A stretch of DNA of 64,000 bases. Origin: a virus. Shown here one piece after another: positions 27,274 to 57,431 of the stretch (the stretch's first letter is position 1; every line of letters starts with the position of its first letter). A program made the position numbers and the translations under genes. Location: IMG/VR virus record IMGVR_UViG_3300012954_000009, positions 38,474 to 102,473 of that record; one strand, given 5' to 3'. The notes beneath the pieces were generated by a model. The model saw only the letters and a list, made by a program, of their open reading frames with translations. It did not search any database and was not told the DNA's origin.

Positions 27274-27275
27274 AG

Positions 27276-27291
27276 TACAATTATAATATAC
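27276..27291 (-). promoter_or_regulatory. Candidate phage promoter motif, variant
   Basis: Read on the minus strand the site is GTATATTATAATTGTA, matching 15 of 16 positions of GTATATTATTATTGTA, the motif found upstream of other late genes here. It is preceded by TATTT. It lies in the only real gap (45 bp) within the cargo block and could boost expression of the 1288-residue protein and the RNA polymerase downstream. Confidence 0.5.
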
Positions 27292-27318
27292 AAATAATTA
27301 GGCACAAAATCTAATAAT

Positions 27319-41073: not shown

Positions 41074-41634
41074 TTAGCTTTCAAATTCATCATAACCATC
41101 TAACTTTGATTTTGGAGGATCAAAGTTGAATAAATGGGCTATTCTATATTTATTTTTCATTACTCTATACATGTTCCAATTATCAGGATATGCTTTAGCA
41201 ACTGATCTCTTAAATTTTCTACAGGCCTTAAATCTCCAAAACTCCCTGTTTTTAAATCTATATTTAGTAGACCAGTTAGTATAAAATATCTTTCCTATGT
41301 TACCATCAGTTTCCCAATTTTTATTTTGTAAAACCTTACCATATTCTTTTGATAATGCATAGTTTGTATTAACAGTTTTAGAAGGTGAACATGTTCCTAT
41401 AAAAAGAAACCCTAATGAATCTGGTAATTCTACACCATCTCTATTATCTATTACTCCATTCCATAACCTATTATTATATAATTTAATAATATCTTTTAAC
41501 TTATCATTATCTATATTTTCATAATGAGGATACTTATCTTTAAATTTCCTTATTATTTCTGCATTTAGTAGCCCAAGTCTTTTTTCTCTATATCTAGGAG
41601 CTTTCAAATCAGGCTTTCTAAAATTGTTAATCAT
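41074..41634 (-). CDS. Conserved crAss-like morphogenesis protein (186 aa), possible ring/collar component
   Basis: The sequence RLWNGVIDNRDGVELPDSLGFLFIG near residues 58-82 is a pattern I associate with a conserved small protein in crAss-like and other Bacteroidota phages. The rest is basic and aromatic, with a C-terminal FNFDPPKSKLDGYDEF. Function is unknown. Next to collar-type genes it may be the R4-type ring protein, but I cannot confirm that. Just upstream (41640-41665) the minus strand reads an AT-rich TTTGTAAATTATAAATA, a weak relative of the promoter motif. Confidence 0.65.
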   Translation of the reverse strand: MINNFRKPDLKAPRYREKRLGLLNAEIIRKFKDKYPHYENIDNDKLKDIIKLYNNRLWNGVIDNRDGVELPDSLGFLFIGTCSPSKTVNTNYALSKEYGKVLQNKNWETDGNIGKIFYTNWSTKYRFKNREFWRFKACRKFKRSVAKAYPDNWNMYRVMKNKYRIAHLFNFDPPKSKLDGYDEFES

Positions 41635-41668
41635 AGTTTATATTTATAATTTACAAAAAAAAGACCAC

Positions 41669-43639: not shown

Positions 43640-46600
43640 TTATTCTAAATTATTTGTACAAGTTATACAATCAGTTTCTATTGTATATGCTTGATTTGTT
43701 CCTGTATCACTAGTACCTTGAACTTGCCAGCATGTTTCTTTTCCACCAGGACCTGCTGTTCTAACTACATCTCCTACTTTTAATGTTTTAGCTGGATCTT
43801 CTAGTATACTAATAACTATGTCTGTTAACGCACATTCCTCATTATACTCTTGTAGTCTAAAATAATTATTTACTACAACTGGAGGATCTGCAGGAGTAGG
43901 ACAATCAGCTTGTCCATCTTTGAATAAGTATACACCTTTTTCAACCCAGTATCCTTCATCTGAAAGATTAGCAATAGAAGTTAATGTATCTGCCATTGAT
44001 GACTCACCAGGCTGATTCCAGAATCCTGTAATATTTTTAGTACGTAAACCTTCAACCATATTTCCACCTGAAGTAACTGCTTGAAAATAAGGCATAGCAT
44101 TAGCAATTCCTTGCATCATATAATTAGCTAAGTCAGGATCTGTTATTATACCATATTCATTTGGAGCAATTAGCCTACCCGCATAAGCACCAAATTGCTG
44201 TAATATATTAGCTGCTGTTACACTTTGAACATCCATTGTAATAGGAAGTACTGCTATCTGGTATCCGCTTTCAAAATAAGGATTTCCATCAAAACCTTGA
44301 CTTATACCAAAGGCACTTGTTTGTGATCCAGTAAGTATGTCTAAATGCTCATCATAATTTTGTAAATACTTTGCTGTAGGTTGTCCGTTAGGGAATGCGC
44401 CCCATCCTGAAACTAATGTTGGATCATGATAATCAGGAGATGAACCATTACTCATGACTAGAATAGCACAAGATTTTGCTTTTTTTCCTGATGTCCATTC
44501 TGATGGTAGTCTTCTAATTGCTACCCACTCTGGTGAACCATTTAAAGATGCTCCGGTCTCTCCAACTATCATTGCTTTACCATAACCTAACCAAGCAGAG
44601 TCAGTTGTTGGTATGATATTATATCCATAACCTGCAGCATCCCATTCTGGACATTCTGCTTTAGTTTCAGATTCTAGCTTATCAATTACAGATTTTACTG
44701 CAGCTGCATCAGCTGTAGAAAAACTACTTGTATTAACAAATACATTTACATCACCTTTATTAGGTCTGCCTGAACCAACTGAACTACCCATAATTGTAAT
44801 TGGGATAGTAACTGTTGAACTAGAACAAGCACCTTGTACTACTGTACTAATTTCTAAAGTTATAGTATCACCAATACATTGATCACTACCATTTTGTTGA
44901 TACACAAATTGATTATTAAATGTAGAGCTTTGTGAAAGAGTACCACATATTGGATTTTGAATTACATTTATTACTGGCGTTCCATCTCCAATTAAGTAAG
45001 GTACAGTGATTGTAGTATCTCCTCCAACAGGAACTTGTAATTGTTTTGTTATCTTCCAAGGCATTATAAATGCTGGACATTCACAACATAGAAGGACAGC
45101 TGTACAGTCTCCAAGTTCCGTCCAAGCAGAGTAAACATAATATATAGGTTCACTTGCTTGTGCTTGATACTTTCCAACATATGCCCAATATGATCTTGTC
45201 ATTGAATTACTACCTGGAACTTGATAAGATACATTATCACATTCAATTGCTCCTTTAGCAACTTGTATACCAGCTGGACAAGCTAAAGGTTGTAATGGAG
45301 TACCCAATAACTCTTGACAATTTTCAGCATCACTAAATACTGTCTGCTGATTTGTATTAAAGTCATATCTTAGAATAGTAAGTTTACTTGGGAATAAACC
45401 ATTAGGTAAACAATTCTCAAGTGCTTTTACATAAATAGATCCAGCAGCTACTCCTGTATTTACAGTAATAGTATTAGGAAATGAAGCTGGTTGGAATGTA
45501 CCAATGTCTGTCCAATTTATAAAGTCTGCACTCCATGCAACAGTTATATCACCAGGTGTAGCATTTCTTGAATCAATTTTAATATCAAAAGTTCCATTAG
45601 CAGATACTGTTGTATCCCAAGATAACTCAGGGTTTTTACAGTAACCGTTTCCTGCTTCTGTTGGTGGTTGTTTTATTAAACCATTAATAGGATCATAGTA
45701 ATATGGTTTCTGAGCATCACCAAGGTTTTTTCTACCTAAGTATATATCTGTTCCTGCTATGGTTGTATCTTTTGATGTACCAGAATGTAACACACTTGTA
45801 CAATTTACACCAGGTATGTCATATGTTCCTAATGGACATGTTACAGAAGCTCCAGAAGCTGTTGTAATTACAACAGTAAATTGAAGAGTTAATCCGGGTG
45901 TTAAACTATTAGCATCAACAACAGCAGATAAATTAGTACCAGGATTAGTTATCAAACCACCTGCTACTTGTGATCCCGTTTCTACAAATGTTGCTGACCA
46001 ATCATATGTTACAGTATTACCTAATGAATTAGACCATTGAAATACTACTGCATCACCTTTTGGTACTATATTAAATACTTGTGGGCAAGGTACTGACATA
46101 GGTATGCTAATCTGCGTACTGTCATTACATTGCTCATTTCCGCCACTAACACAAGTTATTACCTGAGCATTTATAGGAGCTGTAATATCTAAAGTTCCAA
46201 TTTGAATAACAACAGGTGCTACTGAACCACTTGATCCTGTTCCTAGTGCTGACCCAACTACATTAAAATTAGTACTTATAACGTTTCCTTGTGAGTCTGT
46301 TAAAATAATACTAGACCCACAATCAGTAAATCCTTGAGGAATAGTTGTAGCACTAAAGTTAAAAGCAATAGCTGTTGCTGCTCCTGTAGAGTCATCTGTT
46401 CTTACGTCTGCTGTATATAAAATATTTACACCGTCACAACCACTATCACAACAATTTTGTTGAATATCAGAAACTGCATTATATAAATCACATATAACAG
46501 CCCACTGATTTTGGTGACTAGCAGCTAAAGTATTAGCATTTACTACCCAACTTCTACCTGAACCATATGAAGTTCCAGTAGTTAAACTAAGGAAGGTTCC

Positions 46601-47275
46601 ATCAATACATTGTGCATTTATAGCTGCTTGTAATTCAATATTATCTCCAACTAAAGCAACGTGTGCACAAAATGCTGACTCTAATGCTAGTAATAAAACA
46701 GATGCTGGACCCGGTTGGCCTCCTGGTATAATACATTTTGATACTACTAAAGGATCTCCTCCTGTTGAAGGATTACAAGGTAATACACAATTTTCTAATA
46801 CTACAATTCTCTCTATTAATTCACTTATTTGATTGTTGATAATTGCTATAGCATCTAAAATATCACATATTGTGTTTGCTAGATATAAAGCATATTCATC
46901 TATTGGTAAAGCTGTTACTGGATTACCCTGTGCATTATTATAATGTAAACAGTCTGGTAATTCTACTATTATATTATCCGGACCTGTAGGAATAGCACAT
47001 ACATACTCAATTATTGCATTTAAATACTGAGCTAAATCTGGATTTTCTTGAGAAGGTGGTGGTATGCAATTTAACTTTAGTTCTCTTAAGTCAGGATTGC
47101 AATCACATGTTGCGTCTATAATATCACACAACTCTTGTGCAAGTTTAGCAATTACTTCACTAACTGTATCTCCATTGCATAAGTTTATACATGGAATATC
47201 TGGACCCTGCCATATCACACAATTTGATGATATAGGGTTACATGGTGCTGAACTGCCGTTATTAGTAGGAATCAT
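43640..47275 (-). CDS. Large fibre/spike protein (1211 aa) with degenerate vWA-like region
   Basis: The N-terminal SSNCVIWQGPDIPC (W22) and following Cys-rich helical segment are patterns I have seen at the N-termini of marine phage fibre proteins, probably the virion attachment part. Residues 180-820 are Thr/Ser/Gly-rich with many Cys pairs and look like a chain of beta-sandwich domains. Residues about 838-1010 resemble a von Willebrand A fold (DVNVFVNTSSFSTADAAAVKSVI, later CAILVMSNGSS), but the metal-site DxSxS is replaced by NTSSF and the TDG strand by SNG. A small Cys-containing beta domain ends the protein. A promoter-like motif lies 34 bp upstream of the ATG. Surface adhesion is inferred. 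Confidence 0.78.
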   Translation of the reverse strand: MIPTNNGSSAPCNPISSNCVIWQGPDIPCINLCNGDTVSEVIAKLAQELCDIIDATCDCNPDLRELKLNCIPPPSQENPDLAQYLNAIIEYVCAIPTGPDNIIVELPDCLHYNNAQGNPVTALPIDEYALYLANTICDILDAIAIINNQISELIERIVVLENCVLPCNPSTGGDPLVVSKCIIPGGQPGPASVLLLALESAFCAHVALVGDNIELQAAINAQCIDGTFLSLTTGTSYGSGRSWVVNANTLAASHQNQWAVICDLYNAVSDIQQNCCDSGCDGVNILYTADVRTDDSTGAATAIAFNFSATTIPQGFTDCGSSIILTDSQGNVISTNFNVVGSALGTGSSGSVAPVVIQIGTLDITAPINAQVITCVSGGNEQCNDSTQISIPMSVPCPQVFNIVPKGDAVVFQWSNSLGNTVTYDWSATFVETGSQVAGGLITNPGTNLSAVVDANSLTPGLTLQFTVVITTASGASVTCPLGTYDIPGVNCTSVLHSGTSKDTTIAGTDIYLGRKNLGDAQKPYYYDPINGLIKQPPTEAGNGYCKNPELSWDTTVSANGTFDIKIDSRNATPGDITVAWSADFINWTDIGTFQPASFPNTITVNTGVAAGSIYVKALENCLPNGLFPSKLTILRYDFNTNQQTVFSDAENCQELLGTPLQPLACPAGIQVAKGAIECDNVSYQVPGSNSMTRSYWAYVGKYQAQASEPIYYVYSAWTELGDCTAVLLCCECPAFIMPWKITKQLQVPVGGDTTITVPYLIGDGTPVINVIQNPICGTLSQSSTFNNQFVYQQNGSDQCIGDTITLEISTVVQGACSSSTVTIPITIMGSSVGSGRPNKGDVNVFVNTSSFSTADAAAVKSVIDKLESETKAECPEWDAAGYGYNIIPTTDSAWLGYGKAMIVGETGASLNGSPEWVAIRRLPSEWTSGKKAKSCAILVMSNGSSPDYHDPTLVSGWGAFPNGQPTAKYLQNYDEHLDILTGSQTSAFGISQGFDGNPYFESGYQIAVLPITMDVQSVTAANILQQFGAYAGRLIAPNEYGIITDPDLANYMMQGIANAMPYFQAVTSGGNMVEGLRTKNITGFWNQPGESSMADTLTSIANLSDEGYWVEKGVYLFKDGQADCPTPADPPVVVNNYFRLQEYNEECALTDIVISILEDPAKTLKVGDVVRTAGPGGKETCWQVQGTSDTGTNQAYTIETDCITCTNNLE

Positions 47276-47309
47276 AAATATTTTTTTTACAGCTGTTTAC
47301 GTAGTATAC

Positions 47310-47325
47310 TACTATAATAATATAC
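47310..47325 (-). promoter_or_regulatory. Candidate phage late promoter
   Basis: The minus strand reads TTTTGTATATTATTATAGTA (core GTATATTATTATAGTA, 15 of 16 matching the other sites), 34 bp before the 1211-residue gene. A perfect 12-bp palindrome GTAGTATACTAC (47301-47312) overlaps its downstream end and might be an operator. Confidence 0.62.
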
Positions 47326-47374
47326 AAAAGTTTTCATAAACAAGCAAGGTTTATATATAGTATCTATTTTCATA

Positions 47375-48475
47375 TCATTCACTCTTATTTGATGATGGTA
47401 GATTGTCACAGCTAAAAGGTGTTCCAATTATTGTTGTTTTAATTTCCACTTCATCACACATTTTCATTGGTGTGCAATCTGGTTTCTCTTTACCTGTGTC
47501 TACAGTAATAGTAATTTTTTGTTGTCTACATTTACCTTCAGTCTTAAAACAATAACATATCTGTATAGTATGATCAGTGTTTTTTCTAGCATTAGGAATA
47601 ACTTGGTAAAACATACCATCATGATCCGTAAAACCTGTATTGCCACCATCTAAAATAATTTCATAATTATCAACTGGGTCTCCATATTGATCCTTTACAT
47701 GTATTGTAATACACTCACTACCATCACAAAATAAAGATTCTAGTTGGTTAATCTTAATTAAAGTTGCTTGTATTGATGCTTGAATATTTTGTAGTTCAAT
47801 ATTAAGTTCTTCAAGACTAACATTTAACTCATCAATAGCAGCTTGTGTATCTTTTATTACTTGTAAAAGGATCTCTTGTTCAGATATGAGTTTATCTAAA
47901 AGTTCTGATAGTTCCTCAAACTCTCGTTTAAGAGTTTCACATTCTCTTTCTCTTGCTTCATCTCCACAAACTTCTTTTAATTTTACTTCAAGAACTTCTC
48001 TCTCTGCTTCTAGCTCATCTATCTGCTGTTGAATAACTTTTAACAGTTGAGTTGCAGTCTCTAGCTTATCAGTTAAGTTGCTAATTGATAACTGTAAATC
48101 TGCAATTTGAGCTTCTATTTTACTTTCTGTAGCACATAATTCTTCTAGCTTATCATAAAGTTCTGCCAGTTGATCTAATATATTTTTAGAATCTTCTGGT
48201 TCAAAATACCCGCATCTTTTACACCAATCAGGTGCTAAAGGATCATCACAAGGATGTAGAGGTGAATTAGGATAAAAAATTTCAGAGTGTATTTTTTTTA
48301 TTTCAGGTATATCTTTCTTTAAACTTTCCCAGTCAGATATTTGTTTTTTGATTGATGCACCTATTGGATCTGAAATGCAACAAGGGGTAATACCAAATCT
48401 TTTAGACATAAAATCCAGATATACATTTTTAGCAAATACCTGTTGTGATTCTATTATTTTTATAGTATCGGTCAT
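47375..48475 (-). CDS. Coiled-coil fibre-type protein (366 aa) with C-terminal beta domain
   Basis: Residues about 70-255 form a long heptad-rich coiled coil with many Leu/Ile/Glu. The segment after 258 (ECITIHVKDQYGDPVDNYEIILDGG, then TGFTDHDGMFYQVIP) looks like an Ig- or carboxypeptidase-regulatory-like beta sandwich with Cys pairs. The layout, coiled-coil shaft plus small head, fits a trimeric fibre. Its ATG overlaps the preceding stop by ATGA, so it is translationally coupled to the small Cys protein. Host contact or virion decoration is inferred. Confidence 0.75.
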   Translation of the reverse strand: MTDTIKIIESQQVFAKNVYLDFMSKRFGITPCCISDPIGASIKKQISDWESLKKDIPEIKKIHSEIFYPNSPLHPCDDPLAPDWCKRCGYFEPEDSKNILDQLAELYDKLEELCATESKIEAQIADLQLSISNLTDKLETATQLLKVIQQQIDELEAEREVLEVKLKEVCGDEARERECETLKREFEELSELLDKLISEQEILLQVIKDTQAAIDELNVSLEELNIELQNIQASIQATLIKINQLESLFCDGSECITIHVKDQYGDPVDNYEIILDGGNTGFTDHDGMFYQVIPNARKNTDHTIQICYCFKTEGKCRQQKITITVDTGKEKPDCTPMKMCDEVEIKTTIIGTPFSCDNLPSSNKSE

Positions 48476-48654
48476 CTATTTAAATTTTTCTTAGCTCTTT
48501 CTATGTTCTGTGTTAAAGAACCTCTTAGTCTTTTATTACCTCCATTTTTAGCATTATATGCTGATAAACATGTTTTATGAACTGTAGCCCCATTTGTTGC
48601 TTTTGTTTTTTGACAGCCACATGTAAATCCTTTTCCGCAATGTGCACATCTCAT
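48472..48654 (-). CDS. Small Cys-rich, zinc-ribbon-like protein (60 aa)
   Basis: I start this gene at the ATG at 48654 (MRCAHCGKGFTCGC...), because an upstream ATG at 48696 would overlap the previous gene and add a non-conserved-looking leader. The chosen start lies 20 nt after the previous stop, an AT-rich gap. Cysteines in CAHCGKGFTCGC, plus H and C in VHKTC, could bind one zinc. The C-terminus is basic (NKRLRGSLTQNIERAKKNLNR). It overlaps the next start by ATGA. Function unknown. Confidence 0.72.
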   Translation of the reverse strand: MRCAHCGKGFTCGCQKTKATNGATVHKTCLSAYNAKNGGNKRLRGSLTQNIERAKKNLNR

Positions 48655-48674
48655 TATGTTAGTTTTTATTTGGT

Positions 48675-49226
48675 TTAACAACAGAGAGCTGAGCAATCAA
48701 TTTTGCTCAATCTTCTCTTAGCATAATTATATAATTCCATACCTGCAGTAGCATCTTGACAGTATTCTACTTTTGCAACAGCAGCATCTATCAATGTTTT
48801 TATGTAACCTAACTCTGAAATTAATTCAGCTCTTTCACTATCTGGTTCACATGGTTTCATATCAATATCACAAAGAACTTGATGATATCTACTAAGAATG
48901 TTGCATACTCTAAGATGATTATATTCTACGTAAACCTTTTCTGTAGGTGCTACACTATATCTTATTATATATACACCATCTACAATATTACCTCTTGTAG
49001 TGCCACAATCTTCTTTTTGTATACCCAATGCACAACTGTTCAAACATAAATCAAATCCATGTTGTACATTTATTAAAGTAGGTTTGTTAAATCCCGGAGA
49101 AGTAATCAATAATTCTTCACAATCAATAGATAAGTCTGAAGTGTACTGACTAGTATCTTTTATGCATAGTATCTCACAATTGGATACAGGAGATAATTCT
49201 AAGCTTAATATGTGTTTATTAGCCAT
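48675..49226 (-). CDS. Conserved structural-type protein (183 aa)
   Basis: The protein begins ANKHILSLELSPVSNCEILCIKDTS and contains PGFNKPTLINV, a GVYIIRYSVAPTEKVYVEYNHLR strand set, and a helical C-terminus ending in CSALCC. I recall this layout as a widespread uncharacterised protein in crAss-like and Bacteroidota phage late regions, next to fibre genes. A promoter-like motif lies 33 bp upstream, so it heads a short operon (49226 to 43042). An assembly or base component of the fibres is possible. Confidence 0.72.
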   Translation of the reverse strand: MANKHILSLELSPVSNCEILCIKDTSQYTSDLSIDCEELLITSPGFNKPTLINVQHGFDLCLNSCALGIQKEDCGTTRGNIVDGVYIIRYSVAPTEKVYVEYNHLRVCNILSRYHQVLCDIDMKPCEPDSERAELISELGYIKTLIDAAVAKVEYCQDATAGMELYNYAKRRLSKIDCSALCC

Positions 49227-49259
49227 TAATTTTTTGTTTTAGATATAGAATTAATACAA

Positions 49260-49275
49260 TACAATAATAATATAC
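49260..49275 (-). promoter_or_regulatory. Candidate phage late promoter (best match)
   Basis: The minus strand reads TTTTGTATATTATTATTGTA. The core GTATATTATTATTGTA is identical over 16 bases to the site at 50692. It lies 33 bp before the ATG at 49226 and just after the terminator at 49301. TATTATTG inside it resembles the Bacteroidota -7 element TAnnTTTG at seven of eight positions, but no -33 TTTG is at the usual distance. Confidence 0.7.
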
Positions 49276-49300
49276 AAAAAATAATCATAAGATAAAAGAA

Positions 49301-49326
49301 AAGGGCCAGTTATAAAACTAGCCCTT
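49301..49326 (-). terminator. Rho-independent terminator after the 427-aa gene
   Basis: AAGGGC pairs with GCCCTT, then after one mismatch AGTT pairs with AACT around an ATAA loop. T-rich DNA (TTCTTTTATC) follows on the minus strand. It closes the single-gene unit 49355-50638. Confidence 0.85.
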
Positions 49327-49354
49327 TTTCTATTAAAGTTAAGAAAATTGCAGA

Positions 49355-50638
49355 TTACCCTTCAATTGGTTCTCCTGGTCCTTCTTCTTCTCCTGGTATT
49401 TCAGGTGTAGTTTCTACAGGGAATGACTCAACTGGGATTCTAGCAACTTCTGCTAGTCCGTCCCATACTTCTTTTATGAACTTATTGACAATATCAGATG
49501 TTTCACTTCCATCACACTTAACGTAGATTTTGTAAAGATACTGATCATTATCAAATACTCCCGTAGGGTTATTAAATCTAGGAATACTGTGTAATAAGTA
49601 CCAAGCTTTGTACATTACAGGATTTCCTAAAGCATCATTTCTGTCAACAGAAGCTAAGATTCTGTCAGATCCTTCAATCTCACGGATTCTTGCACTATCT
49701 CTGTTCCCTTGGTTAAATGGTGATTGCATGTAGTTCTCAGTCATTATGATTTCTCTTAATACTGTGTCTCCATAAGTTCCACCCATTTGTCCTGGTGTAC
49801 TTGTAGTAACACCACAATCAGAACAAGGATCTCCAGACTCATCTAGTAAAGAAGCAACAAGAGTTACAGGTTCTTTACCATAAAAGTCTCTAGTATCAAA
49901 TGAACAGTTGCCAAACTTAGTATCTACATAAGCACCTACTAAACATAGTTTTACTTCTGTGATATCTGTTGCACCTGGCGTGTATCCAGTTGATGTAAGA
50001 ACTTGTTCAATTGTATATTCAGCTGTTCCTGATGCAGTAGTTACAACAATACCACCTGAAGTTGCTGCGTTTTTCTCAGCAACAAAAGGTTTTACAATAG
50101 GATCTTCTAGTAACATTGCACCCGCAGTTGCTAAAGCAACAGCTGGATCAACATACTCTTCTCCTTCTGCACAACATGCTCCACCTGAATCACCAACTGC
50201 ATATGCATTACGGTTTAAAAACCTTAATGCTGCTGAACCTTTTACATCTAATCTTAGATATAGTGGGCTTCCACATGGAGCACACTTAGGTCCTACAGAG
50301 ATACAAGTTTCACCTTGAGTAGGTGTAGTACAGTCCTCACTCCAAAGTCTTGTTACATACTTAGGATTAATTCCTTTTGATTTCACGGATTCTGCGTACC
50401 CTCCGTGCCCTGGGTTGTTTCCAATAGTGTCACCGCCTGGTACATTGTGATAAGACCCCTGAACAATATATAAAAGTCCAGCGTTTGGAGAACCAATTGC
50501 ACCCGTAGATACAGTTGTCCATTTGTCATCACTTACCAATCCGATCATACCTGGAGTCAAGTCTTTAGTAGCAACTTCTGTGCTAGCTACTTTACTTGGG
50601 TTAAAGCTTTTACAAAAAGCATGATTAAAATAAGCCAT
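49355..50638 (-). CDS. Probable abundant virion protein (427 aa), single-gene unit
   Basis: No enzyme motif is seen. The protein is Gly/Ala/Thr-rich with beta-type segments (GLLYIVQGSYHNVPGGD, GNNPGHGGYAESVKSKG, LRFLNRNAYAVGD) and paired cysteines, and ends in a Pro/Glu tail (EIPGEEEGPGEPIEG). I have seen similar sequences in marine Bacteroidota phages, unannotated. It has its own promoter-like motif (50692) and terminator (49301), the layout of a highly expressed structural gene. A head decoration or tail component is possible. It does not match the crAss major capsid protein, which is at 54319. Confidence 0.75.
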   Translation of the reverse strand: MAYFNHAFCKSFNPSKVASTEVATKDLTPGMIGLVSDDKWTTVSTGAIGSPNAGLLYIVQGSYHNVPGGDTIGNNPGHGGYAESVKSKGINPKYVTRLWSEDCTTPTQGETCISVGPKCAPCGSPLYLRLDVKGSAALRFLNRNAYAVGDSGGACCAEGEEYVDPAVALATAGAMLLEDPIVKPFVAEKNAATSGGIVVTTASGTAEYTIEQVLTSTGYTPGATDITEVKLCLVGAYVDTKFGNCSFDTRDFYGKEPVTLVASLLDESGDPCSDCGVTTSTPGQMGGTYGDTVLREIIMTENYMQSPFNQGNRDSARIREIEGSDRILASVDRNDALGNPVMYKAWYLLHSIPRFNNPTGVFDNDQYLYKIYVKCDGSETSDIVNKFIKEVWDGLAEVARIPVESFPVETTPEIPGEEEGPGEPIEG

Positions 50639-50691
50639 TTTTCTTTAATTTTTAGTTATACATAATTTTAATAAATAGTACCTACTTAGGG

Positions 50692-50707
50692 TACAATAAT
50701 AATATAC
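50692..50707 (-). promoter_or_regulatory. Candidate phage late promoter (best match)
   Basis: Minus-strand core GTATATTATTATTGTA, identical to the site at 49260 and preceded by TTTAT. It lies 53 bp upstream of the 427-residue gene. Two exact 16-base copies in unrelated gaps make chance unlikely even in AT-rich DNA. Confidence 0.7.
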
Positions 50708-50731
50708 ATAAACTTTTTATATATATCAAAT

Positions 50732-51442
50732 TTAATTACTTCTTTCTGCGGCTTGTTGACTCATTTGAGCTTCACCGTAGTTAGAAATATCACCTGCTAT
50801 AATAGCAGCTGCCTCGTCAATAAATAACTCAACAATATCATCTTTAAACTCAGAATCTACATCTACTGCTGGTGCTACTCCAGTGTATGGATCTATAATT
50901 CCAGCAACCTCAATATATGTGGGTCTTCTATAATATGTTAAAACAGGATTTACAATATTAAAATCCTCTTCTCTGTATATTCTTAGCTCCCCATCTATTA
51001 AAGTACAAAATGTTTCTCCCCATTCAAAACTAGGTTTTTTGAGGGGATCTCTCAATATAAGATTTACGTTAGCTTCTTCTGCTAAATATACTGTCATAGA
51101 CCTTGCTTCTGGACAACATTCTGTATTAGCATCTGTACTTACTCTTTTAAACTCTAAGTACTCTTCCTTACTAGGAAAGTTATTAGATTGAAAGTATGTT
51201 GCAGTACTTGTGCCTGTTAAAGGTATTTCACGTAAAAGAATTTGCATATCATCTATTCTTCTTTTAGATGATTCATCTCCTTCTTTATACATGTTACCAC
51301 CATGCAAGTTACGTCTGCACCACTCAACTTGAGCTTTATTAAAAGCTTCAATCATTTGCCAAGCTTCTATATTATCAAAATCTTGACTATCTAATTTATT
51401 AAGCCTTTGTTTTAGTTTTAATTGAAGTGTTGCGTTATTCAT
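50732..51442 (-). CDS. Probable tail collar (ring) protein, crAss-like R3 type
   Basis: A 236-residue protein with LKLKQRLNKLDSQDFDNIEAWQ, AFNKAQVEWCRRNLHG and PSFEWGETFCTLIDGELRIY, a series I associate with the conserved crAss-like protein located after the capsid genes (tentatively ring protein R3, gp38 of crAss001). The N-terminus is helical, the centre beta-rich, and the C-terminus helical and acidic. It starts 11 nt after the upstream stop. The role in the head-tail joint is inferred from synteny with crAss001. Confidence 0.72.
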   Translation of the reverse strand: MNNATLQLKLKQRLNKLDSQDFDNIEAWQMIEAFNKAQVEWCRRNLHGGNMYKEGDESSKRRIDDMQILLREIPLTGTSTATYFQSNNFPSKEEYLEFKRVSTDANTECCPEARSMTVYLAEEANVNLILRDPLKKPSFEWGETFCTLIDGELRIYREEDFNIVNPVLTYYRRPTYIEVAGIIDPYTGVAPAVDVDSEFKDDIVELFIDEAAAIIAGDISNYGEAQMSQQAAERSN

Positions 51443-51453
51443 AATTTTTTATT

Positions 51454-52470
51454 TTAAGAGTTCCAATAAGATTCTACTTTAGATAATAGACTCATAAGTA
51501 CTTCTTCTTGTTCAGGTTTCTTTAGAAACTTAACTACTTCTTCTTGTCTCTTTCCTAGTTTTAAACCAGTATCTAATGTTTCAATCCATCCTCCTGCTTT
51601 TGATGTAATAAATCTATAGTAAAGGCAATCCTTAACTAAAGCAGTAACTTTTAAATCCTCCATATTAAGCTTAGAAGCTTTAATAAATGATTCTGCTGCT
51701 TTCTTTTTATTACTTTCAGTTCCTTCTCCATTAATGTGAATATCCATATTCTCATAAATAACATCTACTGGAGTATTCTTTGTATATTGTACACTATCAA
51801 AATCAACAATCTTAGCTACGTACATAAGTTTAGTATTATTCTTATTATACATTTGCTCTAAAGCAACTAATGCTTTATTTCTTAGTTTACTATATTCAGT
51901 TCTTGTAGATATAGATTCTTCTACTGTATCTAAATAAAATTTTGGAGTTGGGCTAGACTTCTTTGCATCCTTTAATGATTTAGCTACAATAGAAAAACCA
52001 CCTGCTTTAATTGCATGAATCTTTATAAGATCATAAGGATCTGTTTCTGGATCTAAATAGACTGGGTCATTACCACATCTTAGATTAATTCTAGACCAAA
52101 ACTTATCATTGTCTGGTTTCAATAATGTTAATTTATTCCAGAACTCTTTATCATCTGGATCAACAACATTAGCTGCTAAATCTTTTTCTAGTTGAGAAAC
52201 TGTAGCTCTAATTTCTTTAACTTTGATTTCTCTTTCTCCAGGTGGGAGTAGTTTAACATCAGGAGCAAATTCATTAAGTCCTGTTACATATCTTTTAACT
52301 CCATTTATTTCTAAACAAGCTAAAGTTTCTTCATGATATACTCCATCATGTAATGCCATTCCATAGTTTTCTAAACCCATGTTTTGTTTACTTGGGTTAA
52401 AAAAAGGCTTGATAGCAATAGCCTTCTTTTTTCTCTGCTGATATTTTTCAACAATAGTGTAATCTTCCAT
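51454..52470 (-). CDS. Conserved crAss-like protein (338 aa), function unknown
   Basis: Begins EDYTIVEKYQQRKKKAIAI, then a helical DPDDKEFWNKLTLLKPDNDKFWS region, and a longer C-terminal part with RTEYSKLRNKALVALEQMY and LVKDCLYYRFITSKAGGWIET. I recall related sequences in crAss-like phages between the capsid and collar genes but no function. Mixed charge and no signal peptide or membrane segment. Its position suggests a virion or assembly role. Confidence 0.72.
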   Translation of the reverse strand: MEDYTIVEKYQQRKKKAIAIKPFFNPSKQNMGLENYGMALHDGVYHEETLACLEINGVKRYVTGLNEFAPDVKLLPPGEREIKVKEIRATVSQLEKDLAANVVDPDDKEFWNKLTLLKPDNDKFWSRINLRCGNDPVYLDPETDPYDLIKIHAIKAGGFSIVAKSLKDAKKSSPTPKFYLDTVEESISTRTEYSKLRNKALVALEQMYNKNNTKLMYVAKIVDFDSVQYTKNTPVDVIYENMDIHINGEGTESNKKKAAESFIKASKLNMEDLKVTALVKDCLYYRFITSKAGGWIETLDTGLKLGKRQEEVVKFLKKPEQEEVLMSLLSKVESYWNS

Positions 52471-52510
52471 TTTTATTGGTTTTAATTAATAATTATTACT
52501 TCACTCAAAA

Positions 52511-52571
52511 GTACAAAAAATTTGTACAGTTTATTATTAATATATCTATAAGCAAGCTTTTACACTTGCTT
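52511..52571 (-). other. Two inverted repeats in the 127-bp gap
   Basis: GTACAAA-AAA-TTTGTAC at 52511-52527 is a perfect 7-bp stem with a 3-base loop, and AAGCAAG/CTTGCTT (52550-52556 and 52565-52571) forms a second stem. Neither is followed by a clean T run on the minus strand. They may be a weak terminator, a processing site or an operator between 52598 and 52470. A degenerate relative of the promoter motif lies between them. Confidence 0.4.
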
Positions 52572-52597
52572 AAAGTTTTGATTCAGTAATATCTAAT

Positions 52598-52828
52598 CTA
52601 AGCTTCAGCACCGCCACCAAGAGCTTCAGCTACTTCTAACATCAATTGAACTTCATCACAAGTCAAAAATTGAGTTGGTATGCCATCAAAAATTGTTGTA
52701 ACTCCTTGAACTTTGTAAAAACCAGGTCCCTGATCTTCACAAGGTTCAATTACAAAATTTCCTTCTGGGTAGTTGATTGCAGGTATTGATTCCTTTAACT
52801 TCTCTATTAATTCACTAAAATGTCCCAT
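52598..52828 (-). CDS. Small acidic protein (76 aa), paralogue of the next gene
   Basis: Contains FVIEPCEDQGPGFYKVQG and LTCDEVQLMLEVAEAL. The C-x-D-x-x-P-x-x-Y-x-V-Q-G element and the C-terminal helix are shared with the 86-residue gene just upstream, so these are diverged duplicates. The C-terminal helix also resembles the end of the 372-residue coiled-coil protein. Function unknown. A partner or cap of the coiled-coil protein is possible. Confidence 0.72.
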   Translation of the reverse strand: MGHFSELIEKLKESIPAINYPEGNFVIEPCEDQGPGFYKVQGVTTIFDGIPTQFLTCDEVQLMLEVAEALGGGAEA

Positions 52829-52847
52829 GTCTTATAATTTTATTTAA

Positions 52848-53108
52848 TTATGATGCACCAGCAAATTGCTGCAATGATTGATAAAGAGCCAAAAGCTCAT
52901 CAACCTCTTCACAATTCAAAGTTTTAAAAACTTCATCACCCTTTGACTCAGCATGAGGATTTATTCCTTGCACTGTATAGTGATCAGGTCTATCATCACA
53001 ATTATCAAATCTCATGATCACAGAACTTGACTCTTCAGGGTTAGGTGACCCTAGTATAGTTCTTATCATAGTATTAATTTGTTCTTTTACTTTTTCAAAT
53101 GCGTCCAT
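52848..53108 (-). CDS. Small acidic protein (86 aa), paralogue of neighbour
   Basis: Contains SSVIMRFDNCDDRPDHYTVQG and LNCEEVDELLALYQSL. The shared C-D-x-x-P-x-x-Y-x-V-Q-G element and C-terminal helix tie it to the 76-residue gene. It starts 23 nt after the 372-residue gene. Acidic and mostly helical. Function unknown. Confidence 0.72.
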   Translation of the reverse strand: MDAFEKVKEQINTMIRTILGSPNPEESSSVIMRFDNCDDRPDHYTVQGINPHAESKGDEVFKTLNCEEVDELLALYQSLQQFAGAS

Positions 53109-53131
53109 AATATTATTATTTTAATTAATTT

Positions 53132-54250
53132 TTAAGCTTCTTTAGGTGCTCCACCTTCGGCTAATAGCTTTTGTAAAAACATTAGCTGATCAACTTGTTC
53201 AGGATTTAATTCACAACATTCAGCTGCTTGACCTCCAGAACATGCTGATGAAATACTTGTTCTACCTACAGCTAAAGAGTTCATTTCACCAATACCAGAA
53301 GCTACACCTTGTCCTATTGAGATATAATTATCTTCTGCTTTTGTTAAAGTGTCACTCATAGCATCAGCTTTAAACTTAAGCTCATCATTCAATTTTGAAG
53401 CTGCAGAACGTAAACCTTTAAGTTCAGCCACTACTTCTTCTTGTGCTTGATATTGAGCTCTTACCGCTTTAATTTCTGCATCTAATTGAGATATTTGAAC
53501 TTCAAGATCTGCAATTTTAGAAACTACTCCTTCGCTCAACAATGTAGTTAAGTCCTTACATGCAGATTTACCTGAACCTTCTTTCTTGGCTGACGCACAT
53601 TTGGCTTCAGCAGTATCAAGATCTTCCTTTAGCTTCTGTAATTGTTCATTTGCTTGATCTCTTTGTGACTTAAGTACATCCAGCTCCTGGTCAAGAACAT
53701 CTGCTTCTCTAGATGCTTCTTTAGCTTTATTGGCGTAAATTTCATCTTGGACAACAGAATCAGCACGCATAGTCTCTATACCAACAATACTATCTTTAGC
53801 CTCACATAGTGCAGCTTCAAATGGTGTTAAGATTCTAATTTCATAAACTACAGTTTCACAACCTTCTACGTTAGCGGCTATTGATACTTCACCTTCTTCT
53901 GGCTCTGGCTTTTCACCTATAGGCTCAATTACTTCACCTTCATGTCCTTCTCCTATTGGCTCTACAATCTCTTCCATTACCTCTTTGGCATGTTCTAATC
54001 CTGGAGGGCCAATTGGCTCTTCACCAAAATTTTCTAGTCCAGTTTGAAATTTCTGTCCTAGACCATACATATCACCAATACGTAGACCAGCATTCCAAGC
54101 TTCATAAACCGTCTTAAAAACTCTAAGTTCAGTTTGACCTCTATGCACACTATCTACTACTCCAAGTGCAGCAAGATTTGAACCGGCATTACCATCAAAA
54201 ATATTACTTGTAAATGGAAGCAAAGGCTTCCCTACTTTTAATTCACTCAT
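53132..54250 (-). CDS. Coiled-coil structural protein (372 aa)
   Basis: An N-terminal 80 residues with VHRGQTELRVFKTVYEAWNAG leads into a Glu/Pro/Gly linker with repeated EPIG units (about 78-125), then a coiled coil at about 165-330 with heptads, and a short C-terminal helix (LNPEQVDQLMFLQKLL) like those of the two following small genes. The layout suits a head fibre or a scaffold-like component. It comes right after the major capsid protein terminator, so it is expressed by read-through or from an unseen promoter. Confidence 0.72.
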   Translation of the reverse strand: MSELKVGKPLLPFTSNIFDGNAGSNLAALGVVDSVHRGQTELRVFKTVYEAWNAGLRIGDMYGLGQKFQTGLENFGEEPIGPPGLEHAKEVMEEIVEPIGEGHEGEVIEPIGEKPEPEEGEVSIAANVEGCETVVYEIRILTPFEAALCEAKDSIVGIETMRADSVVQDEIYANKAKEASREADVLDQELDVLKSQRDQANEQLQKLKEDLDTAEAKCASAKKEGSGKSACKDLTTLLSEGVVSKIADLEVQISQLDAEIKAVRAQYQAQEEVVAELKGLRSAASKLNDELKFKADAMSDTLTKAEDNYISIGQGVASGIGEMNSLAVGRTSISSACSGGQAAECCELNPEQVDQLMFLQKLLAEGGAPKEA

Positions 54251-54268
54251 TTTTTTATATTTTTAAAT

Positions 54269-54296
54269 AAAAAAGGGAGGGGTTACCCTCCCCTTT
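54269..54296 (-). terminator. Rho-independent terminator after the major capsid protein
   Basis: On the minus strand a GC-rich stem (AGGG with CCCT, GGG with CCC across one bulged base, AAA with TTT; four-base loop) is followed by six T residues. It starts 23 nt beyond the capsid gene stop. Confidence 0.85.
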
Positions 54297-54318
54297 CTAA
54301 GGTTAAACTAATTCAAAT

Positions 54319-55938
54319 TTAGAATGAGCCTCCAGTAACTGGATTTCTCATTACAATTTTCAAGACTTTAGTCGGATCTTTAACCCATACAGCAGGCATG
54401 GTTTGAGTCATATATACTCTATATCCATTGAACTGTCCTGTGGATGCAAAACCTTGAGTTCTTCCCATATAGTCCATAGTACCATTTTGGTAGAACCACT
54501 TAAGTTGATTATCCCAAGAAAGTTTCAATAAGAATATATTATCATTACCTTCTTCTGTAACATCAAAAATGATAAAGCTATAAGAGCTTAATGGTCTTCC
54601 ATCAATTAATGGATTCTCAATATCATTTGTATGTAGGTTATCAAACGCTGGATTCAATACAAATTTAACATTAGCTAAGAATGGAATAGTAAAGCTTGTG
54701 TAAGCAAAACCAAAATCAAGATCCATTCCTTGACCTGTTACAGCACCAATATCAGATGCATTTTGTACTAAACCTGAACCAAATACTTCATCAGCAATTG
54801 CTTTGTTAATTAACTGCATACCACCAATACCTGTTTGTACAACAAGTTTTCTTTGTGGGTCTGGTCCTTTAAATTCAACTTTACCTTGATAGAAGTTATA
54901 AAGTTCAGACTTAAACATATCCAATGTAAACTGTGACTTGTTATATACTCTTTTGAAAGAGTTATCTAACTGAGACCAAAGACCTACTGATAATCTAATA
55001 TCATCTGGACCATCTTGTTTAATTCTACCACCTTTACCCCACATTAGGTAAGTTTCAATATCATTAGCAATTTTAGATAAATGAGCTGCTTCAAGATTTG
55101 TGATGAATGTTCTTGTTAAAGTACCATTCTCAAATGCATCTCTTGCACCTGCTTTACCCATATTTGCTACTAACTGCTCAATGCTTGATACAGATGGGTT
55201 GTTTGGATCTTGGTTGAAGTTTCTCCAAATCTCTGTTACAGGTACTGTTCCGTCAGCATTCAATCCTCCTTTGATCATAAGATCAGCTCTAGAAGAAATA
55301 GAATAGTGTACGTGTGCCTCAGCTCCTCCTACAAAGTTGTAGAATTCTCTGAAACCAGATCCTGTTTCAATATCTGAAAATCTTTCTCCATACTCACCTC
55401 TTGCAGAACCTTTTCTAAAGTACTTAGTTCCTGCTACTAAATATTTAGCAGCGTCTAACGTAGCACCATTATCATTGTTTACAAGCTGAACAGTATAGAC
55501 ATACCCATCACCCGCTGGTAAAATATCATCAGCAGTAACGTATAGCTCTAAACCGTTGTATTTGTCATAGGTAATAATATCACCATGTCCAAAAGAACGT
55601 TTAGATAACTTAATTTTGAAGGTCACACCATCTGCACCTAGTTCACTAGATGATTCAATGTTACCTACACAGAACGGTAAGTCCTGTGCTACTGGAGTTT
55701 GCCATTTATACTCACCTCTAGCATTGTCTACCTCAATTGTATTCTTTCCACCAAAAGAAGCCATTTGATATAAAGGCATTTCAACTTTTTGAGTCATTGC
55801 CCATAAATCAACTGGTCCCATATCCATAGGCTCGGCAGAACCAAGCATCTGGGTAAGGTGATAAGAATCAACATGAGAACTTGCTTTGTAGCTTGTATCT
55901 CTTAGGAAAATTCCATTGTTTAAAACTGGAGTTGCCAT
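54319..55938 (-). CDS. Major capsid protein, crAss-like HK97-fold type
   Basis: The 539-residue protein has the composition and motifs of crAss-like major capsid proteins as I recall them: N-terminal DSYHLTQMLGSAEPMDMGPVD and EMPLYQMASFGGKNTIEVD, a central region with SSRADLMIKGGL, and a C-terminal segment of ESEE-free beta strands with MTQTMPAVWVKDPTKVLKIV. It follows the scaffold-like gene, ends at a strong terminator, and lies three genes after portal. Expected to assemble the icosahedral shell. A degenerate promoter-like motif lies 38 bp upstream of the start. Confidence 0.87.
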   Translation of the reverse strand: MATPVLNNGIFLRDTSYKASSHVDSYHLTQMLGSAEPMDMGPVDLWAMTQKVEMPLYQMASFGGKNTIEVDNARGEYKWQTPVAQDLPFCVGNIESSSELGADGVTFKIKLSKRSFGHGDIITYDKYNGLELYVTADDILPAGDGYVYTVQLVNNDNGATLDAAKYLVAGTKYFRKGSARGEYGERFSDIETGSGFREFYNFVGGAEAHVHYSISSRADLMIKGGLNADGTVPVTEIWRNFNQDPNNPSVSSIEQLVANMGKAGARDAFENGTLTRTFITNLEAAHLSKIANDIETYLMWGKGGRIKQDGPDDIRLSVGLWSQLDNSFKRVYNKSQFTLDMFKSELYNFYQGKVEFKGPDPQRKLVVQTGIGGMQLINKAIADEVFGSGLVQNASDIGAVTGQGMDLDFGFAYTSFTIPFLANVKFVLNPAFDNLHTNDIENPLIDGRPLSSYSFIIFDVTEEGNDNIFLLKLSWDNQLKWFYQNGTMDYMGRTQGFASTGQFNGYRVYMTQTMPAVWVKDPTKVLKIVMRNPVTGGSF

Positions 55939-55975
55939 AATTGTTTTCTTTTTTTTTGATTAATAATTAATTGTT

Positions 55976-55992
55976 TACTTATATATATATTC
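55976..55992 (-). promoter_or_regulatory. Weak promoter-like candidate before the capsid gene
   Basis: The minus strand reads GAATATATATATAAGTA about 38 bp before the ATG. The spacing fits the other sites (30-34 bp) but the sequence matches only partly, and the region is simple AT repeat. Confidence 0.3.
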
Positions 55993-55993
55993 T

Positions 55994-57316
55994 TTAATAT
56001 CTTTTAAAAATGTTGTTAGGTCTAGCAATTTTCTTTTTAGAAGTTCTTGCGCCTTCTTTATCTCTTTGTTCAACACCTAGTGAACTTCCTCCGCTATTTG
56101 CTTGCTCAGTTTTTAGTTTTCTAACAGTTTTTTCAACTGCTGATTGAGCACCCTTCTCCATTATTTTAGTCTTGTATCCATTTGGATCTGCAAGTAACCA
56201 AAGAGCTTCAGCTATAAGTGGATAGTTTGGTTCTACAAACTGATACTTTTCTAATAGATGTCCTAATAGATTTGTATTCTTTCCACTAACTGAAGGATAA
56301 TTTGGTTGAACTAATCCGTTATACAACATTGCTTGAACTTTTCGGTCAACTTTAATTTCATTTACTTTACCTTCTTTTAAGGTATCATATACACTTTGCA
56401 TGTAATTTTGTGACGCTTGTTCTTGTTGCTTACGTTTCATCTCTTGTTGTTGTAACTTTTGTGCAACAACTTTTTCTTGCATCTTATCCAATTTCGGTTT
56501 GAACTTTTTTGCTTGTTGTTCAAGCTTTCCAAGATCTTTCCAAATTTCTATTTCTTCTGCTATTTCTTGTTCTGTTCCATATCCTGTAGCAGATAAATAG
56601 TCTACAATAATTCTTTCTTGGTCCCTTTCTCTTTTTATATCTAAAGATTTAGTTTCCTCTGTTTGTGCAAGAGTTTGAAATAAACCCTTTAAGTCTTGAC
56701 CTCCTTCAGCAACATATCTTGCCGCTACCTGGAGTTCTTTTGGTAAACTGTCAAAGAACTGTTTTGGAGTTTCACTTCTAACTTGTCTTGCTCTTTCTTC
56801 TAAGTTAGCTTCTATTAACTCCTCCCAATCTTTAGTTGAATATTCTTCTAAAGATTTGTCATCATCAAAAGGAACAATTTTATCATCTTTAATAAGCTTC
56901 TTAAATACATCACTTATTCCACTTATAGACTTACGTCCCCTTGTTTCTTTCTTCTTTTCTTTAGCTTCAGGTTTTACTTCTTCTGTTTCTTCTTCTATTA
57001 AAGAATCTAATACATCAGAAGCTTCTTCTTTAGCTTCAGCAGTAACTTCTTCAGCTACTGTTTCTTTTTCTTCTTTAGCAGGCTCTTCTGTTTCTGCTGT
57101 TTCTACATTTAAATCAGTAGCTTTTTCTACCTCTTTTTCTGTAAATGACATATCTGCTTCCCTATTAGGTTTAGAAAATATGCTCTTTTTCTTTTCTGTT
57201 CCTTCTGATGGAACTGTTACTTCAGATGCTGTAGGTGCACCGTTAAAAATCTCATCAAGATTTACTTCAACATTTGCTTCTACTTTGCTATCCACAGTAT
57301 TATTATTATCACTCAT
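55994..57316 (-). CDS. Probable capsid scaffolding protein
   Basis: The 440-residue protein starts with a very acidic, Glu/Thr/Val-rich low-complexity region (about 1-140), then a conserved-looking helical core (KELQVAARYVAEGGQDLKGLF, EIAEEIEIWKDLGKLEQQAKKF) and Gln/Lys-rich coiled coil. A basic C-terminus ends NNIFKRY. An acidic helical protein between portal and capsid genes is the usual form of a scaffold. It would be removed or ejected after assembly. A promoter-like site lies 30 bp upstream. No protease motif is visible in it. Confidence 0.78.
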   Translation of the reverse strand: MSDNNNTVDSKVEANVEVNLDEIFNGAPTASEVTVPSEGTEKKKSIFSKPNREADMSFTEKEVEKATDLNVETAETEEPAKEEKETVAEEVTAEAKEEASDVLDSLIEEETEEVKPEAKEKKKETRGRKSISGISDVFKKLIKDDKIVPFDDDKSLEEYSTKDWEELIEANLEERARQVRSETPKQFFDSLPKELQVAARYVAEGGQDLKGLFQTLAQTEETKSLDIKRERDQERIIVDYLSATGYGTEQEIAEEIEIWKDLGKLEQQAKKFKPKLDKMQEKVVAQKLQQQEMKRKQQEQASQNYMQSVYDTLKEGKVNEIKVDRKVQAMLYNGLVQPNYPSVSGKNTNLLGHLLEKYQFVEPNYPLIAEALWLLADPNGYKTKIMEKGAQSAVEKTVRKLKTEQANSGGSSLGVEQRDKEGARTSKKKIARPNNIFKRY

Positions 57317-57346
57317 GTTATTGGTTTTTATAGTTAATCAATTATC

Positions 57347-57362
57347 TACATATATAATATAC
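57347..57362 (-). promoter_or_regulatory. Candidate phage late promoter, variant
   Basis: Minus-strand core GTATATTATATATGTA, 13 of 16 positions as in the two exact copies. It lies 30 bp upstream of the scaffold ATG, in the 115-bp gap, close to the 33-34 bp spacing seen at 49260 and 47310. Confidence 0.55.
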
Positions 57363-57431
57363 GCATATATTTTTAAATAAACTTAATAAATTTTATTGAA
57401 CTTTTCTTTTTTGTGCAGTATATAGCTAACA

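Follow-up and report, generated by a model that had tools for sequence, protein, structure and literature searches.

The DNA studied here, called the window, is a stretch of 64,000 nucleotides corresponding to positions 38474-102473 of the 102,473-base IMG/VR virus record IMGVR_UViG_3300012954_000009 (G000). Its late block is located on the minus strand, and several of the genes are preceded by a short conserved element which is very probably a promoter. The block includes portal and major capsid protein (MCP) genes (E-values of 2.7e-96 and 2.7e-30 in a PHROGs search) and encodes a crAss ring protein (CrAss_Ring_2 in Pfam, E-value of 2e-16). Together with a giant RNA polymerase (RNAP) displaying the DFDID motif, these proteins argue for placing the phage with the crAss-like phages (Crassvirales or close kin).

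A preliminary description of the window had proposed a recurrent 16-mer as candidate late promoter. The sites were recovered on the minus strand: exact copies at 49260-49275 and 50692-50707, copies with one mismatch at 27276-27291 and 47310-47325, and one with three mismatches at 57347-57362. The distances to the ATG also agreed (2, 34, 33, 53 and 30 nt in order of position). Allowing up to three mismatches, 11 matches were found in the whole window against 4.66 expected, and 2 of 100 shuffles reached 11, so that this level is weak on its own. A position weight matrix (PWM) was obtained by expectation-maximisation, seeded with the 16-mer, from 567 sense-strand gaps of related contigs. The relatives were 80 contigs collected by capsid-protein search (1.33 Mb in total, gaps making up 5.1% of the bases); a second set of 80 contigs was collected via the gene neighbouring the site at 41636. 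Four genomes of the lineage were also compared, G000, G002, G003 and G004. The matrix was trained on relatives only, with the own record outside the training set; parts of G002, G003 and G004 (L046, L064, L073) were inside it. PWM counts in the relatives' gaps are in-sample, as the matrix was built from the same gaps, while the own record, the 41636 class and the sites of G002-G004 beyond the training region represent out-of-sample tests.

The element was present in about 31% of the 567 gaps. Its full form is TTTT-n-G-TATATTAT-nnn-TRTA, with about 20.5 bits of information. The core T-A-T-A-T-T is at least 96% conserved, the TRTA is strong and the three-base gap is free; at one gene (41636 class) the variant box TAAATTAT replaces TATATTAT. 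An anchored profile revealed no other strong box upstream or downstream. Applied to the own record, the matrix identified eight sites with scores of 19.1-22.9, all on the minus strand and upstream of late-type genes, the next-best score being 8.4 and the maximum of the reversed-sequence control 13.3. The site at 41636-41659 (TTTTTGTAAATTATAAATATA) had been overlooked in the preliminary description, and two more lie beyond the window at record positions 27508-27531 and 29167-29190. Four of the sites (27273, 41636, record 27508 and record 29167) represent gene classes that played no part in training. Downstream of record 27508 there are short genes for which membrane segments are predicted, as judged by eye, and which seem compatible with lysis functions. 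The six sites of the window and the associated features are the following:

57344 to 57367, minus strand: predicted late promoter ahead of gene 55994-57316, which itself precedes the major capsid gene; +1 expected at 57349; PWM score 22.5
50689 to 50712, minus strand: predicted late promoter ahead of gene 49355-50638; +1 expected at 50694; PWM score 22.4
49257 to 49280, minus strand: predicted late promoter ahead of gene 48675-49226; +1 expected at 49262; PWM score 22.3
47307 to 47330, minus strand: predicted late promoter ahead of gene 43640-47275; +1 expected at 47312; PWM score 20.5
41636 to 41659, minus strand: predicted late promoter with the TAAATTAT box, ahead of gene 41074-41634; +1 expected at 41641, giving a leader of about 7 nt; PWM score 19.1
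27273 to 27296, minus strand: predicted late promoter reaching into the ATG of gene 23407-27273; +1 expected at 27278, giving a leader of 5 nt; PWM score 22.3
50678 to 50694, minus strand: predicted stem-loop GUACC-CUAAGUA-GGUAC at the 5' end of the RNA, its first base being the predicted +1
54319 to 55938, minus strand: major capsid protein gene, without the element upstream (0/79 orthologues)
2494 to 17325, minus strand: giant protein of 4943 aa with the RNA polymerase catalytic motif GADFDIDK (GADFDID also in G002, G003 and G004), a probable crAss-type virion RNAP

The element at 41636-41659 overlaps a T-tract located after a hairpin. Gene 23407-27273 is the first of a stretch ending in the giant RNAP gene, and similar sites directly precede the matching gene in the three other genomes (G002:12732, G003:92679 and G004:38291), the correspondence being judged by eye from the first codons.

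In the 80 relatives, a specificity test of the 16-mer with up to two mismatches gave 57 matches in sense gaps, 2 within genes on the sense strand, 9 within genes on the antisense strand and none in antisense gaps. Equal frequency inside genes or on the opposite strand, which had been named as the observation speaking against a promoter, was thus not found. With the PWM at a score of at least 16, the 1.33 Mb contained 162 sense-gap, 2 sense-genic and 1 antisense-genic sites, and 2 in the reversed control. All 169 gap sites scoring at least 12 were located before orthologues of genes 55994 (65), 49355 (51), 48675 (50) and 43640 (3), i.e. the genes behind the 16-mer sites at 57347, 50692, 49260 and 47310, respectively. 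Stricter denominators gave sense hits for 62/76 orthologues of 55994, 24/27 of 49355 (those with 160 nt upstream), 50/55 of 48675 and 5/12 of 43640 (MCP-centred loci); outside this count, many loci of the second contig set also show the 43640-class site at their left edge. No element was detected upstream of the terminase-position gene (0/62 orthologues), the portal gene (0/78), the MCP gene (0/79) or genes 51454 (0/70), 50732 (0/65) and 47375 (0/11), and there were zero antisense or reversed matches at the orthologous gaps of the gene classes counted. The motif search in relatives suggested in the preliminary description has yielded orthologous placement across 80 + 80 contigs.

The same strand preference was obtained in the genomes. 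In G002, G003 and G004, 26 of the 27 sites with a score of at least 12 were on the late strand, and the remaining one is a palindromic site read in the opposite direction; the reversed controls gave none, two (12.5-12.6) and one (16.1), respectively. For the four genomes combined, the figure is 34/35 with the same palindromic overlap as exception, and no other element was present on the early/middle strand. Unsupervised k-mer counts ranked TGTATATT first, in 18/84 late gaps against 0.73 expected, and revealed nothing comparable in 70 early/middle gaps. An early/middle promoter motif was sought and none was found. The existence, strand, position, conservation and information content of the element are thereby given by the computation.

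The late gaps of named crAss-like phages and relatives were compared with those of the lineage, taking gaps of at least 20 nt and up to 150 nt from each (sequence covered per phage: 100 kb for Lbo-JY46, phi14:2 and crAss001, 50 kb for phi17:2 and csAssE). The Bacteroidota -7 box TAHHTTTG was found in sense late gaps of phi14:2 (5/16), crAss001 (5/12), Lbo-JY46 (6/18), FPSV-S29 (9/13) and csAssE (9/18), with 0.5-0.7 expected and 0/100 shuffles reaching the observed counts; these five phages are without the element. Phi17:2 displayed TAHHTTTG in 1/13 late gaps and TANNTTTG in 3/13 (5/100 shuffles). In the lineage, TAHHTTTG was not enriched (G000 2/16, G002 2/26, G003 2/10 with only part of its late block included, G004 2/18, within shuffles), and TATATTRT or TAAATTAT was present in 8/16, 5/26, 4/10 and 8/18 late gaps, respectively (0/100 shuffles). 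Host-type boxes are lost in the lineage, gene 51454 apart. As the named crAss-like phages use TAHHTTTG and do not carry the element, the latter is specific to one lineage, and its earlier characterisation as possibly crAss-specific was too broad. In the late gaps of phi14:2, Lbo-JY46, FPSV-S29, csAssE and phi17:2, several host-type -7 boxes end 4-7 nt before an ATG, which implies leaderless late messages in crAss-like phages and kin.

The 41636 class allowed the transcription start to be predicted. The sequence TTTTTGTAAATTAT-AAA-TRTA was present in 74 of 80 contigs; among the other six, four have a 2-nt spacer, one an altered TRTA and one is cut by the contig end. In all 74 loci the ATG follows TRTA by 2-6 nt (5 nt in 47), and the N-terminus of the protein is MINNFKKP in 56 of them. 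Consequently, the RNA must start at or near TRTA, probably on its R. With +1 on the R, TATATTAT would be at about -12 to -5, ending 4 nt before the start. The preliminary description had regarded TATTATTG as a look-alike of the -7 element. However, TATTATTG is not conserved, TATTATAT and TATTATCT being common in relatives; conservation instead falls on TATATTAT, which occupies the place of a Bacteroidota -7 box. The remark that the -33 TTTG is not placed right was borne out, since TTTG was located at -17 from the motif start in only 11.0/81.5 weighted sites.

A comparative signal was also obtained at the predicted start of the 49355 class. In 36 of 40 distinct sites, own included, the R is precisely the first base of a Watson-Crick stem with at least 4 bp. 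Eight different 4-base arms occur among them, and loop lengths range from 3 to 7. When arms were exchanged between sites differing in arm sequence, 1.8% of the 1198 combinations paired. A 5-bp stem begins at the R in 26/40 sites, one base upstream in 18/40 and one base downstream in 10/40, the counts at neighbouring bases partly reflecting the same stems. As arms and loops vary while pairing is kept, an RNA hairpin is favoured over a DNA operator. The stem is absent from the 55994 and 48675 classes, and the own leaders fold no better than shuffles, so that the support for the hairpin is comparative only.

Taken as a whole, the element is interpreted, with moderate confidence, as the late promoter of one uncultured crAss-like lineage, which would be read by the host core RNAP together with a phage-encoded specificity factor. 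TATATTAT would act as melting and recognition box without a conserved -33 element. About eight such promoters per record would each fire one late operon (capsid, tail, virion-RNAP cargo and lysis-like genes). TATATTAT departs from TAHHTTTG at exactly the last two positions, with A/G for T at -6 and T for G at -5 (matrix columns: A 0.85, G 0.15 and T 0.00 at -6; T 0.90 and G 0.00 at -5), and unmodified host holoenzyme should therefore read it poorly. Late genes would then wait for a phage-made factor redirecting the host core enzyme. This factor is preferred because four of six host positions are kept, T-6 G-5 is never present, and a T-tract, a G and TRTA are added; the replacement of a host-type signal before late genes likewise points to a phage-made switch. 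The late-promoter candidate and the probable phage-encoded factor of the preliminary description are both supported by these data, while its interpretation as a whole stands only in part. A more elaborate scenario is put forward tentatively: the whole late regulon may have moved from the host-type promoter of the cousins to a new box with a non-sigma-70 phage factor, some late messages being near-leaderless and one carrying a protective 5' hairpin.

One candidate for this factor may be a protein of 192 aa encoded at record 4178-4756 (L009). It is strongly basic (+18), conserved in G002-G004 and lineage-restricted, with no match in 50,697 phage records (tblastn), in Pfam or among sequences of solved structures. 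The model of a 73%-identical relative (pLDDT 84) is all helical. VIA-align gave a best Z of 3.6, to unrelated helical proteins, which offers no support either way. A winged-helix protein of 103 aa may be a further candidate.

Several results weigh against the proposed mechanism. Foldseek matches of the 192-aa protein were at chance level (best E-value of 2.0, two sigma chains among 26 rows). No match to Sigma70_r2, r4 or r4_2 over the cut-off was obtained in 8 genomes, gp55 itself not being searched for; likewise, no sigma factor over the cut-off was detected by Pfam scans of 40 proteins (38 record-encoded outside the window and 2 of the ring module in the window), a further set, and PHROGs, hmmscan having taken in part of the small open reading frames (ORFs). 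Portal and MCP genes have no element of their own and therefore need read-through or another signal. Phi17:2 has the new box in 2/13 gaps and a site with a PWM score of 14.6 upstream of gp046. The three-mismatch count in the whole window is only mildly above chance. Finally, TAHHTTTG is above shuffle in the 80 relatives (59/544 gaps sense and 43 antisense, against 28 expected). Counted without deduplication, gene 51454 accounts for 40 of the 64 sense matches (40/66 gaps), and the remaining 549 gaps hold 24 sense and 49 antisense matches. The host-box reading of the 51454 matches is unsure because they lie within an inverted repeat with compensating changes, after which comes TTTTGA.

The main rival explanation is that the element is read by the phage's own newly made crAss-type RNAP (2494-17325) instead of the host enzyme, which is possible though rather unlikely. 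Virion RNAPs of jumbo phages read AT-rich motifs of about 10 nt centred near -10 (PMC7598289), a DFDID protein is encoded in the record, and the element is information-rich without a -33 box. In reviews and in a crAss001 study, late transcription is assigned to the host RNAP, the latter with the suggestion that newly made RNAP subunits may also transcribe late genes (PMC8375218). On the other hand, the early/middle strand, where a virion RNAP would be expected to act first, is without the element, late transcription of phi14:2 is attributed to the host RNAP (review PMC10136315), and the RNAP diverges fast (33-40% identity to the three genomes compared) while the motif is constant. It is somewhat less likely again that the host RNAP reads the element alone, as a tolerated -7 variant or as the box of an unusual host or an alternative host sigma. 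The retained T-12, A-11, T-8 and T-7 and the 4-nt spacing would fit the promoters of Flavobacterium johnsoniae, in which the box is 4-5 nt from the start and the -33 is weak too (PMC6847099). However, T-6 and G-5, which hardly vary in F. johnsoniae, have frequencies near 0% in the matrix, the standard box is used by cousins that infect Bacteroidota, and T-tract, G and TRTA are no part of the host box.

An action of the element in RNA, as a processing site, terminator tail or translation signal, appears very improbable. At 41636 and at many 48675-class sites, the T-tract coincides with a terminator-like run of T or is close to one, and a hairpin follows the element in the 49355 class. Against this, hairpin and T-tract are not present at all classes, the ATG distance ranges from 2 to about 90 nt, with the ATG within 6 nt at 41636, and an invariant T-A-T-A-T-T core followed by three freely varying bases is reminiscent of a promoter box. 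Chance occurrence in AT-rich gaps could only be argued from the three-mismatch count in the window, which is about twice the expectation; it is already refuted by strand and gap specificity, reversed controls, unsupervised k-mers and orthologous placement, and is given practically no weight.

Compared with known systems, the element resembles the late promoter of T4, which consists of a single AT-rich box near -10 without an upstream box, before late genes only. The T4 box TATAAATA, at -13 to -6, is read through the sigma factor gp55 (PMC1524935), acting with gp33 and gp45. The lineage has TATATTAT instead, with a T-tract and G before it and TRTA at the start, and no sigma-70 family match. The Bacteroidota housekeeping promoter (-7 TAHHTTTG, -33 TTTG) shares place, spacing and four box positions with the element, but the latter is without T-6, G-5 and a conserved -33. 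Early promoters of jumbo-phage virion RNAPs (phiKZ, AR9) are similar in their AT-rich box, yet these boxes precede early operons. Late promoters are known in phages as a kind; this box, its late-only placement throughout a lineage and the replacement of the host box did not turn up in the open papers searched. No late promoter of crAss-like phages was found in these papers either, although the phi14:2 study (Drobysheva 2021) may report a motif, and a term search of a 2023 review of the order (PMC10136315) returned neither promoter nor sigma.

The analysis provides an explicit promoter map with predicted start sites and demonstrates that related phages differ in late promoter type. The question of the late-gene switch thereby becomes testable, by seeking a factor that travels with the box. 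The element may also help to recognise late operons in phage records from metagenomes.

The host is probably a member of the Bacteroidota, because Shine-Dalgarno-like sites are lacking (0/68 genes, 2.6 expected) and A is present at -3 in 75%, a start-codon context likewise described for Flavobacterium (PMC6847099). This context is the only evidence here for such a host: the closest named MCP belongs to a phage with Leptolyngbya as its listed host, and a search of bacterial genomes with RNR gave five loci uninformative on the host. One contig (L314, WLWP01000004.1, 114,697 bases) in a Pseudomonadales bin encodes an RNR 81% identical to that of this phage. It is probably a misbinned relative, in which case bin-based host calls would mislead.

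Further conserved signals were observed in the gaps. The gap upstream of gene 51454-52470 (window 52471-52597) and its counterparts in relatives contain a conserved inverted repeat, e.g. GTACATAATTATGTAC in relatives, then TTTTGA. It has compensating variants, the TAHHTTTG of 51454 lies within it, and TANNTTTG is located 15-60 nt before the ATG in 46/70 orthologues. The repeat may represent an operator, a hairpin or else a promoter of host type. In the own record, TTTG-N17-23-TANNTTTG occurred 10 times against 6 in the reversed control, which is uninformative. An element GTTAGCTATATA (window 57317-57431, record 3121), mostly followed by CTGCA or TATGCA, was found about 70-100 nt upstream of the 55994 orthologue in all four genomes and before an early gene in two. 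In the same genomes, most copies of AAACCAA lie 8-22 nt ahead of a start codon (26 occurrences within 30 nt for 410 ORFs), and AAAACCAA was enriched in gaps on both strands; AAACCAA / AAAACCAA is perhaps a translation signal. The L009 gap before the helicase gene, upstream of 5051, seems by eye to contain a tRNA gene.

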